A program made the position numbers and the translations under genes. A stretch of 64,000 nt of DNA from Quatrionicoccus australiensis. Lineage in GTDB: Bacteria > Pseudomonadota > Gammaproteobacteria > Burkholderiales > Rhodocyclaceae. Under the pieces are notes generated by a model that saw nothing but the letters and a program-made list of their open reading frames with translations, was not told the origin of the DNA and searched no databases. The stretch spans positions 2,647,001 through 2,711,000 of the forward strand of contig NZ_JAHBAH010000001.1 of assembly GCF_020510425.1 (NCBI RefSeq). The letters are read 5' to 3'. Of this stretch, positions 16,662-19,589 are shown piece by piece; position 1 is the stretch's first letter, and every line of letters starts with the position of its first letter.

Positions 16662-16886
16662 TTTGTTTTCCTTATGGGGTGATGCCCGATTAACGCGGCA
16701 AGGCGGCGAGTTGCCGACAATGGGGTTGCAACAGATTGTAAGGGGGCAGGGGCTGCAATTGCAGTCTTGTGGCCGAAGGGGGAGGTGTTTCCCGGTTGTC
16801 TGCGATGCAAGAAGGAGTTCGTGTGGGGGGGGCTACTTCTGGTTTGTGCCCAAAGGCGACGGTCAGAGCTTTGGAAAGCGGTCGTT

Positions 16887-16973
16887 CAGGAACGTGCTAG
16901 GTGAGGGGCACGGAGCCGGCCTGCCGGCGTAGCGTCCCAGCGGCGTAGCCGCGCCTCGACCGTTGGGTTAGCC
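16887..16973 (-). other. attC-3: integron cassette recombination site of cassette B
   Basis: On the minus strand the site begins 15 bp after the stop of the lipoprotein cassette with R'' GGCTAAC (16967-16973). Then come L'' GGTCGAGGC, an imperfect palindrome (GCGGC/GCCGC, CCGGC/GCCGG) and L' GCCCCTCACC. It ends at a G-TT crossover (CACGTTCCTG). It is clearly homologous to the site at 18806-18879. The last R' (GTTCCTG) departs from GTTRRRY, as expected if the array was inserted at a secondary site or has decayed. Nothing else was seen in the 16662-16988 gene-free stretch. Confidence 0.75.
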
Positions 16974-16988
16974 ATCGTTCCTTCTCGG

Positions 16989-17318
16989 CTATTGAGGGCG
17001 GCAATTGAAGCGCGCATGCACTCCTCCACCACTCTCTGCGTATCCGATGCTATTCGGCACGAGATCGTATCCATGTGCACATAGGCCACGTGCGCGAGCT
17101 TCACTTGCGAATACCTTCTCTAGCGCCCCCGGGACATCAATTGAGAACCGAGCCAAATGTGACTGGGTTGTGAAAAGCGAATACTGAGTGGACGGCGTAC
17201 CGTCTTTTAGTATGCGCCGGCTGATGGGATCTGTAGGCAGGACGTTCACTTGAGGACCCGAACATGCCGAGAGGACCAAAAAGGCAAGGCTGGCGTAGTA
17301 CATGCAGGCGCAACGCAT
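16989..17318 (-). CDS. Cassette B: predicted lipoprotein of unknown function
   Basis: 109 aa. The N-terminus MRCACMYYASLAFLVLSACSG ends in a lipobox (LSAC), so export and lipid attachment at Cys19 are likely. The mature part has no family I recognise; it contains two further Cys (GLCAHGYDL, ARFNCRPQ) that could form a disulfide. The ATG lies 3 bp after an R' core site GTTAGCC, and the stop lies 15 bp before attC-3. This is the standard layout of a mobile integron cassette carrying a single gene, and it supports both the start and the reality of this small gene. Expression would depend on an upstream promoter or the IS. Confidence 0.7.
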   Translation of the reverse strand: MRCACMYYASLAFLVLSACSGPQVNVLPTDPISRRILKDGTPSTQYSLFTTQSHLARFSIDVPGALEKVFASEARARGLCAHGYDLVPNSIGYAESGGGVHARFNCRPQ

Positions 17319-17321
17319 GAT

Positions 17322-17328
17322 GGCTAAC
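17322..17328 (-). other. attC-2, R' part (separated from the rest by the IS)
   Basis: Reads GTTAGCC on the minus strand, directly ahead of cassette B. Joined to 18806-18879 it completes an attC of about 81 bp (CTAAAAC-GTTAGCC), complementary in form to R'' GCCTAAC. The IS lies exactly at this junction. Confidence 0.7.
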
Positions 17329-17335
17329 GAATGAA

Positions 17336-17347
17336 AGGGACTTCCCC
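17336..17347 (+). repeat. Left sub-terminal inverted repeat of the IS
   Basis: AGGGACTTCCCC. It matches the right repeat (18791-18801, reverse complement AGGGCTTCCCC) except for one extra base. A 10-bp inverted copy, GGGGAAGTCC, lies directly before the transposase ATG (17426-17435) and supplies its ribosome-binding sequence. Adjacent AACGAATG (17326-17333) is also mirrored, at 17413-17420. Confidence 0.75.
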
Positions 17348-17435
17348 GTCCCGAACTAGCGGCGGAAGCCGCCGGCAGCAGTTGCTGCCATGATTAAGTT
17401 TCCAGACCAAATCATTCGTTCGAAAGGGGAAGTCC

Positions 17436-18461
17436 ATGAATATTGTCACCGTAGGCATCGATCTCGCCAAGAATGTATTCGCTTTGCATGGTATTGACCA
17501 GAGCGGCAAGGCGGTTTTCATCAAGCCCAAGGTGGTTCGCGGCCAATTGCTCGAAATGGTCGCCCTGTTGCCGCCGTGCCTGATCGGCATGGAAGCCTGC
17601 TCCGGCGCACACTACTGGGCAAGAGAGTTCAGCCGCTTCGGCCACACCGTCAAGCTGATGGCACCGAAGTTCGTGGCGCCGTACCGGATGAGCGGCAAGC
17701 GTGGCAAGAACGACGCCGCCGATGCCGCCGCCATCTGCGAAGCCGTCACCCGGCCGAACATGCGCTTCGTCCCGGTCAAGGATGTCGATCAACAAGCCAT
17801 CCTCTGCCTGCACCGCACCCGGCAAGGCTTCATTGAAGAACGCACGGCGCTCTATAACCGCCTGCGTGGCCTAATCAGCGAGTTCGGCATTGTTCTACCG
17901 CAGAAAGTCGAACGCCTGCGCCGGGAAATCGGTGCCCACCTTGAAGCACTCCCCGGCTGGGCCAACCGCTGCGTCGGCGATCTGCTCGTACACGCCGACC
18001 GCCTTAATGAACGCATCGACGAGTACGACAAAGCCATTGCCCAAGCTGCCAAACAAGACCAGCGCAGCCGGCGCCTGATGCAACTCCCTGGCATCGGCCC
18101 GACCACAGCCAGCGCCCTGGTTGCCAGCCTGGGTGGTGGTCATGATTTCAAGAACGGTCGGCAACTCGCCGCTTGGGCCGGACTCGTTCCCGGCCAATAC
18201 AGCAGTGGCGGCAAAGCCCGGCTGGGGCGGATCACTAAGGCCGGTGATGCCTACCTGCGCAGCCTGCTCGTCATGGGTGCCCGCGCCGTTCTCGCCGGCC
18301 TCGGAGAGAAGCAGGACCGGTTCAGTCGCTGGGCGAGAAGTCTGGTCGAACGACGGGGTTACTGGAAAGCGGCGGTCGCCATCGCCGCCAAGAACCTGCG
18401 ACTGGCCTGGGCGGTCATGCACTACGGAGATGATTTCCGACTCATCGACGAGACCGCGTGA
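17436..18461 (+). CDS. IS110-family transposase (IS1111 group, DEDD type)
   Basis: 341 aa recombinase that catalyses excision and insertion of the element. The N-terminal RuvC-like DEDD domain shows VGIDLAKNVF (Asp9), CLIGMEACSGAHYW (Glu) and KNDAADAAAICEA (Asp pair). A coiled middle follows, then the C-terminal Transposase_20 domain with LPGIGPTTASAL, GRQLAAWAGLVPGQYSSGGK (catalytic-Ser region) and GDAYLRSLLVMGARA. Full length and without stops, so it may be active. The start ATG is preceded by AAGGGGAAG. It reads opposite to the cassettes it interrupts. Confidence 0.95.
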   Translation: MNIVTVGIDLAKNVFALHGIDQSGKAVFIKPKVVRGQLLEMVALLPPCLIGMEACSGAHYWAREFSRFGHTVKLMAPKFVAPYRMSGKRGKNDAADAAAICEAVTRPNMRFVPVKDVDQQAILCLHRTRQGFIEERTALYNRLRGLISEFGIVLPQKVERLRREIGAHLEALPGWANRCVGDLLVHADRLNERIDEYDKAIAQAAKQDQRSRRLMQLPGIGPTTASALVASLGGGHDFKNGRQLAAWAGLVPGQYSSGGKARLGRITKAGDAYLRSLLVMGARAVLAGLGEKQDRFSRWARSLVERRGYWKAAVAIAAKNLRLAWAVMHYGDDFRLIDETA

Positions 18462-18790
18462 ACAGCAAAAAGCGTCTATAGGAAAAAAGAAAGGAATCAC
18501 CGGCTGGTCGCTGGCGGCCCAAGCCCAGCGAAGCACTGCAGCGTTGATGTGAAGCGGGTTGGACCCGCGCGGGGAGAGCCTGATTACCTCCAGGGGAGGC
18601 AAGTGACTCCCGGCTAACGAATGAGGCCCCCGCGCGCGTCTTTCATCAGGGTCCGGGCAAAAGCCCAAGATGACCGGTTGTAGTACCGCAGTCCTTCACC
18701 TTCTCGCACCGGCACGACAGTGAATCGATGAACAGCAGGAAAACGGGATCAGGAATGAAACGATAAAACTTCAGAACGCTTGCAAAGAAT
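18462..18790 (+). ncRNA. Candidate bridge/seeker RNA region in the IS 3' non-coding part
   Basis: 329 bp without a gene, between the transposase stop and the right sub-terminal repeat. It is rich in potential hairpins (GGCTGGTCGCTGGCGGCC, GCGGGTTGGACCCGC, CCTCCAGGGGAGG, GGGCAAAAGCCC). It holds 13 bases, GGCTAACGAATGA (18612-18624), identical to the left junction at 17322-17334. A nearby TTACCT (about 18590) matches the complement of the right flank AGGTAA, and TTGTAGTA (about 18677) matches the right IS end and junction. In IS1111 elements the guide RNA is known to come from the 3' non-coding region; exact RNA ends cannot be set here. Confidence 0.6.
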
Positions 18791-18802
18791 GGGGAAGCCC
18801 TT
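18791..18802 (+). repeat. Right sub-terminal inverted repeat of the IS
   Basis: GGGGAAGCCCTT, inverse of the left repeat with a one-base indel, followed by about 3 bases and then the attC-2 flank GTTTTAGG. Confidence 0.7.
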
Positions 18803-18805
18803 GTA

Positions 18806-18879
18806 GTTTTAGGTAAGGGGCGGCCCGCTTGCGGGACGTCCCAGCAGCCGAAGGCTGCGCCTTGACCGGAATGTTAGGC
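18806..18879 (-). other. attC-2: recombination site of cassette A, lacking its R' because of the IS
   Basis: On the minus strand: R'' GCCTAAC (18873-18879, overlapping the TAA stop of cassette A), L'' GGTCAAGGC, an imperfect palindrome (GCAGCC-TTC-GGCTGC; GTCCCGC-AA-GCGGGCC), and L' GCCCCTTACC. It ends CTAAAAC where attC-3 has CTAGCAC-GTT. The missing GTTAGCC is found at 17322-17328, on the far side of the IS. Confidence 0.75.
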
Positions 18880-19182
18880 AGCATGCGCGCTCCCGAACAC
18901 TTGCGAATACCAGTACGCATTTGGGTCAGCAAACCATGATGAATTTGCTTGGTTTGCGAACTGGGCGAGTTCACTCATGTTGCCCTGATAGCGTTGATAA
19001 AGGGCAAGAAACTCCCGAAGGCTCTGAACGGAGAGCTTCTTGGACCGAAGCTGAATATGTAACTCACGGCCATAGCCCTTAACCGAAACGACGCCAGAAA
19101 TAGACTGCAACCACGAGAAAAACGCCGCCTCGTCACCGGCGGAGAAGTAGCGCATAGGTGCCTGCCAGATGAGCGTGGCCAT
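18874..19182 (-). CDS. Cassette A: small protein of unknown function
   Basis: 102 aa, no family recognised. No signal peptide; predicted soluble, with YFSAGDEAAFFSWLQSISGV, then LHIQLRSKKLSVQSLREFLALY and an aromatic C-terminus (SSWFADPNAYWYSQVFG). The ATG at 19182 lies 5 bp after a perfect R' core GTTAGGC (19188-19194), and its stop overlaps the R'' of attC-2, exactly the layout of an integron cassette. An in-frame ATG at 19260 would run back through attC-1 and is rejected for that reason. Many cassette genes encode small orphan proteins, so the absence of relatives is not surprising. Confidence 0.7.
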   Translation of the reverse strand: MATLIWQAPMRYFSAGDEAAFFSWLQSISGVVSVKGYGRELHIQLRSKKLSVQSLREFLALYQRYQGNMSELAQFANQANSSWFADPNAYWYSQVFGSAHAA

Positions 19183-19187
19183 ACGAT

Positions 19188-19249
19188 GCCTAACAGTGTT
19201 TACACGGACGCTGGGGTCCGTATAACAATTGATATTGTTGACGTTGGGC
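19188..19249 (-). other. attC-1: attC-like site at the upstream boundary of cassette A
   Basis: 62 bp on the minus strand from R''-like GCCCAAC (19243-19249) to R' GTTAGGC (19188-19194). It has an inner inverted repeat TATACGGAC / GTCCGTGTA and a second small palindrome AACAAT-ATCA-ATTGTT. The internal sequence differs from attC-2 and attC-3, so it could be the attC of a lost upstream cassette or a decayed attI. No integrase gene follows. Between 19250 and 19590 I see no gene; a TTGTTATAC word found in attC-1 recurs near 19298-19306, possibly an older site. Confidence 0.6.
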
Positions 19250-19589
19250 TGGCTGCTCAAATCGCATTGTCGTCAGTGACTTAGAATTCCGGCCGTCAGT
19301 ATAACAAAGCAATATGCCGAACAACTACCGAAGGGCAATGTCTGCTTTGGGGATGGGTAGCCAAGTGTCCGCTTGTGGCCGAAAGCCGTCCGTGGCGCTT
19401 CATTGATCCTCCTACTGTTCAAACGCTGTCGCTATGTGGAACATCCGCATCTCGGCTTTTTGCGACTTGCATCACCGTCTGCTCCCGAAAAGTCCCTGAA
19501 TCCTGCCGTCAACCGCTGCAGCTGCGGCAATATGTCGCAGGGCCCGTCGTATTCGGCCCTATAAAATCCCGCCTTCTTTTATTCTAATT

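Follow-up and report, generated by a model that had tools for sequence, protein, structure and literature searches.

How do two gene cassettes come to lie in a chromosome with no integrase beside them? The question is raised by a stretch of 64,000 nucleotides of Quatrionicoccus australiensis DNA (the window), in which a first-pass annotation had described two small leftward genes, framed by three attC or attC-like sites, as a CALIN-like cassette array without an integrase. Our analysis indicates that the region is probably an integrase-less integron unit that has its own attI-like site, was loaded with cassettes by an IntI acting in trans, and has been dispersed in the genus. The features that the argument uses are these, in window coordinates.

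16846..16894, minus strand, 3′ terminus of the unit (TTCCTGAACGACCGCTTTCC...GGGCAC), from the profile of ends and its recurrence
16889-16973, minus strand, attC-2, of cassette 2 (covariance model with filters off, 37.7 bits, E 2.2e-7)
16989..17318, minus strand, cassette 2 gene, open reading frame of 109 aa, matching no family over cut-off
17323..17329, minus strand, displaced R′ core GTTAGCC, the start of cassette 2
17330-18808, strand not given, IS110/IS1111-type element between the spacer and R′ of attC-3
17436-18461, plus strand, IS110-family RNA-guided transposase, 341 aa (NF033542, 366 bits; PF02371, PF01548)
18797-18879, minus strand, attC-3, of cassette 1 (33.6 bits, E 2.4e-6; attC proper 18809-18879)
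18874..19182, minus strand, cassette 1 gene, open reading frame of 102 aa, matching no family over cut-off
19184..19381, minus strand, conserved module of about 198 bp: terminus, conserved TTGTTATACTGAC block and attI-like site (alignment A1; model R1, 161 bits)
19188..19254, minus strand, attI-like site, earlier called attC-1: ACGGACCCCAGCGTCCGT palindrome, 9 nt, G^TTAGGC (homology to R1)
19376..19391, minus strand, 5′ terminus of the unit (GGCTTT-CGGCCA...), an outer inverted-repeat-like end, from the column information of 58 aligned read-outs

The covariance model used to score the attC sites was trained on 21 sites picked by eye from 38 regular-expression candidates; these come from intI loci of the genus, including the host integron, and the window was excluded. 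Its consensus has the R′′/R′ and L′′/L′ arms, with one unpaired base in L′′. Covariance scoring, one of the checks proposed in the first-pass annotation, bears out two of its sites: attC-2 and attC-3 lie in one orientation and stand well apart from the other 21 rows obtained over the whole 64 kb, the best of which reaches 12.9 bits. The match of attC-3 extends 12 bases into the insertion sequence. The supposed third attC (19188-19249) scores 10.6 bits on the plus strand and 7.6 on the minus strand, which is noise for this model, and was rejected; it is the end of the attI-like module. A scan of Rfam at gathering thresholds gave no match. Folding of the minus strand, likewise proposed, was of less help: the single-strand folding energy of attC-2 is not separable from shuffles (z -0.07), and attC-3 without R′ gives z -1.58. 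The cassette layout was described correctly. The gene of cassette 1 starts as GTTAGGC-5 nt-ATG and that of cassette 2 as GTTAGCC-3 nt-ATG, and one stop lies inside R′′, the other directly ahead of it. Among the matches listed, the 102-aa protein has 50 homologs; its AlphaFold model has a mean pLDDT of 83.7, and no PDB structure matched at E<=0.001 (best E 0.065). The 109-aa protein, which by eye looks lipoprotein-like, has one homolog among the matches listed, 95% identical.

No intI lies near the array, as had been stated. The genome-wide search finds a sole intI over the family cut-off in the 4.31 Mb of the host, at C1:811236-812174 (469 bits); the window starts at 2647001, and the resident gene is about 1.85 Mb from the array. 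This resident integron consists of a full intI and, after it, roughly 8 kb of cassette array. Its first attC is 94% identical to attC-3 over 70 nt, which supports the earlier proposal that attC-2 and attC-3 were built by one chromosomal integron family. Scanning the host genome gave 25 attC matches in all at E<=0.1. Some of these lie at eight other places, apart from the intI locus, with the match at 1829.2 kb a weak one; in 5.5-9 kb of sequence around each of the eight, tblastn detected no intI.

Upstream of cassette 1 lies the module that sets this array apart. Nineteen copies of it were aligned (A1), with a mean column identity of 81%, and R1 is a sequence-only model made from them; the window module scores 161 bits as one of the 19 training rows. 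Read in the direction of the array, each copy has a sharp terminus (CGGCCA), the strongly conserved TTGTTATACTGAC block, a palindrome, nine bases, and GTT. The block resembles a promoter and may drive expression from this leader; a promoter consensus scan of the module found none. Several attI at intI loci share the plan of the module, including the attI1-like one of locus L229. In two genomes of another family (loci L171 and L172), R1 positions 46-196 and 64-196 match directly beside a full-length intI, and the encoded integrases are 49% and 51% identical to the host IntI. By this sequence comparison, the attI part of the module is homologous to attI that stand beside real intI genes. At the window the attI-like site has no intI beside it, as a complete integron would. 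No module match was found on plasmids.

The module is not peculiar to the window. Searched through 76 genomes of the genus at E<=0.001, R1 matches 67 times, in 38 of them; 39 of the matches, in 29 genomes, reach at least 60 bits, and the 28 weaker ones include a few partial matches. Some partial matches may be false, for example the one at G030:C1:2451847. Across the order, 23 of 399 genomes (three of them of the same genus) and 13 of 158 genera have matches, many of them weak. When the 64 units with at least 300 bp of flank were clustered, their flanks fell into 61 clusters, and the 39 strong copies into 38, so that the unit occupies many unrelated places in the manner of a MITE. With the host IntI as tblastn query, no intI was found in the unit loci fetched from the genus (E<=1e-5), the upstream stretch searched having a median of 1485 bp and falling below 300 bp in 3 of 67. 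Cassette sites do accompany the module: when the 63 genus unit loci besides the window were scanned with the attC model (E<=0.01), 28 of them gave a total of 41 matches, every one within 4 kb downstream of a module and on the array strand. The host genome itself has a second unit. No site shared with other genomes was noticed for its flanks, whose matches besides its own locus were one long match to the downstream gene (in G048) and short scattered ones.

A unit that recurs at many places should have recurrent limits, and both were found. Beyond the last attC, units continue with TTCCTGAACGTCCGCTTTC... and then GGGCAC or GGGTCG. A search over 4 kb that tolerated up to 4 substitutions located this 3′ end on the array strand of 35 of the 67 units; on the opposite strand, taken as control, it turned up in 2 (among the 39 strong units, in 23 and 2). 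The spacing is 459 to 3134 bp, with a median of 1039. The remaining 32 units have no 3′ end at the search threshold, and some of them lie on short contigs. Profiles of the ends, made from the 58 of 67 units with a readable 5′ end and the 35 with a 3′ end, fall to nearly zero information within about 15 bp outside the end motifs. The consensus ends of these read-outs form imperfect inverted repeats; single copies are not perfect. On its own, the inverted-repeat pattern gives nine matches in eight of 30 genomes searched, against one for the reversed pattern; beside the six matches outside known units, no transposase was noticed by eye. Target-site duplications were sought in 32 units (the 35 with both ends, all of which stay in the profile, minus two with misplaced 3′ ends and one duplicate), and no offset had consistent repeats. 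In the window, both junctions of the array conform to the G^TT rule. The first bases of the 3′ end are the TT of the crossover, and the last attC, attC-2, therefore takes its R′ half from the fixed end of the unit, G^TTCCTGAACG.

The first-pass annotation had offered a detached cluster or a piece inserted at a secondary site as the origin of the array. Both fit poorly with a module and terminus found in 61 flank clusters, since neither a chance detachment nor insertion at an arbitrary site would yield the same two ends each time. Its term CALIN-like holds for the two attC without a nearby intI; it does not cover the frame of the array, which has an attI-like module and a recurrent terminus.

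Three genomic places show what happens between the ends. The close relatives G039, G070 and the host (G000) share one place, with both outer flanks in common and different contents. In G039 the content is a one-cassette unit lacking intI. That of G070 is an integron with intI, whose 5′ and 3′ ends are on two contigs and presumably belong together. In the host, the same outermost bases enclose an operon that by eye is of efflux type. In a second such place, shared by G007 and G036, identity also ends about 22 bp inside the module, and in a third (G005 and G007) the units are alike throughout. Contents can thus change between fixed ends. No clean empty site was found for the place in G039, the intergenic stretch being too diverged in other genomes, and a search for an empty unit with joined ends (up to 3 mismatches) found none in 76 genomes.

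These observations can be put together as follows. On the minus strand, the unit would consist of the 5′ terminus, a leader with the promoter-like block, the attI-like site, two cassettes with their attC, and the 3′ terminus, the first bases of which would be the far half of the attI core. The cassettes would have been inserted into the attI-like site, at its G^TT, by an IntI encoded elsewhere: either today's, from the resident integron at 811 kb, or a predecessor. Since the same two ends surround different cassettes at many places, the whole unit was probably dispersed in the genus as one bounded piece, and an IS1111-attC-type element later split the first attC. The distribution of integrases tells against this reading. 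Presence of the unit is not associated with intI, which exceeds the cut-off in 25 of the 38 genomes with a unit and in 23 of the 38 without (Fisher p 0.81). In G035, a single-contig genome rated 100% complete, a unit with four attC is present and no intI reaches the cut-off. Together with the lack of an empty unit, this allows past loading by integrases since lost and weakens the case for service in trans at the present day.

Three origins of CALINs are proposed in PMC8618304, namely off-target insertion, loss of intI, and rearrangement, and each has a counterpart here. Simple insertion at a secondary site was our first reading and was dropped because both flanks recurred elsewhere. A refined version holds that IntI placed both cassettes at an ordinary chromosomal GTT of the attG type inside a pre-existing repeat, the flanks being that repeat. 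The G^TT junctions would suit it, a resident IntI exists, and insertion off target by an IntI located elsewhere is the first of the origins that the same account names. Yet the supposed repeat carries an attI-type core and the palindrome homologous to attI beside real intI, and an independent repeat should mostly be empty, whereas no cassette-free copy turned up in 76 genomes at up to 3 mismatches. An attG target would be non-attI and varying; here an attI-like target recurs, as 67 matches of one model. We consider this explanation unlikely.

Alternatively, each unit could be the remnant of a complete integron that stood in the same place and lost its intI by deletion. Integrase loss is among the proposed origins of CALINs (PMC8618304), a 37-aa intI remnant adjoins one module of another genus (L161), and the integron in G070 shows an intI between the same outermost bases at the site of the G039 unit. 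However, the 19 aligned copies join the 5′ terminus to the attI leader at the same point, an agreement that separate deletions would not produce; moreover, none of 22 intI loci of the genus has a full R1 match, and the scatter of 64 flanks over 61 clusters speaks against it too. Decay in place is quite unlikely as the general origin of the units. A plain CALIN split from the 811-kb integron by rearrangement would account for the near identity of attC-3 to the first attC there and for the same insertion sequence in both. The window array, however, starts at a different type of attI and has its own ends, the two stretches read from the resident integron (L015 and L016) contain no R1 match, and tblastn with both cassette proteins returned only the window and overlapping loci. 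The difference in attI largely contradicts such a split, which we regard as very improbable.

The integrase-less unit with its own attI-like site, our preferred reading, can be compared with several known systems. Like a CALIN, the window array has two attC in one orientation and no intI nearby; unlike a CALIN, it has its own attI-like site, a conserved leader and recurrent ends, and it recurs as a unit. The CALIN accounts in PMC8618304 and PMC12444791, in the portions consulted, make no mention of an attI-like site, leader or recurrent ends. With the chromosomal integrons of Betaproteobacteria, including class 1, the unit shares the order of attI followed by cassettes with attC, and it differs from them in having no intI and an attI sequence of a different type. 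The MITE-flanked class 1 integrons of Acinetobacter, as presented in PMC10969869, are likewise pieces, bounded by inverted-repeat ends, that may be moved in trans; there two separate MITE copies flank the integron, whereas the ends of the window unit are its own, intI is absent, and no target-site duplication is seen. In the open-licence papers searched, no description of integrase-less attI units was found, and a prior description may exist. We read the window array as a variant of the CALIN and the integron, the integrase-less attI unit being new relative to the searched literature. Orphan cassette clusters are common, and a recurrent unit of this kind would be a fourth, testable origin for them. 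The leader and ends, both missed by searches for attC only, would identify such clusters.

A short motif offers a lead toward class 1 integrons. L247, one of the 22 intI loci, matches R1 positions 1-71, the 5′ end of the model. The 5′ motif occurs with at most one substitution at 102 to 131 bp from the 3′ end of intI in four loci, in G039, G070, G034 and G051, and the last two are class 1 integrons. An exact 5′ motif 424 bp from the host intI (L015) and another with one substitution at 562 bp were judged to be chance and were not counted. In the class 1 loci, the 5′ region carries GGGCTGCTGCCGGCCATCAGCGGACGC between intI1 and what we take to be the Tn402 end, like the 5′ end of the unit. The piece of locus L228 that holds the motif matches at least 5000 plasmid records, with intI1 annotated in 5 of 6 among the matches listed. 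In the view presented in PMC5460862, the class 1 integron was originally chromosomal and a Tn402-type transposon captured it. Since the 5′ end of the unit resembles this motif of clinical class 1 integrons, located between intI1 and the Tn402 end, the chromosomal ancestor of class 1 could have been carried by the same mover as the units. This belongs to a broader and tentative proposal, possible rather than probable, of a Burkholderiales-wide family of non-autonomous, dispersing integron units with leader, attI and recurrent ends and no integrase, which are loaded in trans and seed CALINs. A recurrent integrase-less attI unit also makes testable the idea that chromosomal integrons moved as bounded units before the capture of class 1 by Tn402.

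The insertion sequence between the two cassettes splits attC-3 and displaces the R′ core by 1.48 kb, and two more copies, 100% and 98% identical over 1479 bp, are in two attC sites of the resident integron. All three copies seen occupy the same position in attC and have the same orientation relative to it, so that an IS110-family transposase lies at a fixed attC place each time. The element, which is absent from the first-pass annotation, matches the IS1111-attC group (Tetu and Holmes 2008; Post and Hall 2009, cited via PMC11187229). As that group is characterized in PMC11187229, the likeness covers the IS110-type transposase, the noncoding stretch after the gene, and insertion at one end of attC; with no notable difference found, the copy in the window is an ordinary one by position and transposase.

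Ends like those of the integrase-less unit are also met around other genes. At two fetched loci (L178 and L181), unit-like ends enclose single genes, and no attC was noticed by eye between them, which hints that these ends bound more than integron arrays. At a locus of the host genome (L205; contig C1, 692.0–699.4 kb) lies an operon named efflux-type by eye. This operon is bracketed by the bases that form the outer edge of the unit at its 5′ and 3′ ends, and the counterpart of the site is occupied by an integron unit in the related genome G039 and by an integron in G070.

Eight further attC places were found in the host genome besides the window (L248–L255):

C1, 82.9–85.7 kb, attC place
C1, 184.1–185.8 kb, attC place
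C1, 1829.2 kb, attC place
C1, 3505.6–3506.2 kb, attC place
C1, 3529.3–3530.1 kb, attC place
C2, 75.5 kb, attC place
C2, 83.1 kb, attC place
C2, 123.0 kb, attC place

The 5′ terminus of the unit is present at two of the eight with one substitution, and the 3′ terminus at two with three substitutions; the R1 module, the modeled attI-like segment, was found at none of them, and no intI occurs in the stretches fetched around them. A second unit of the kind found in the window is carried by the same genome (L075, 2788–4300; C1, 249.8 kb), with one cassette gene and a 3′ terminus bearing three substitutions.

Class 1 integrons were identified in two genomes of the genus (L228 and L229), and an attI1-like site was read out in the latter. 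In both, the 5′ motif of the unit lies between the Tn402 end and intI1.

In the close relative G039 (L074), the place that the unit occupies in the window holds other DNA instead, roughly 1.9 kb long, which by eye resembles oxidoreductase and regulator genes.
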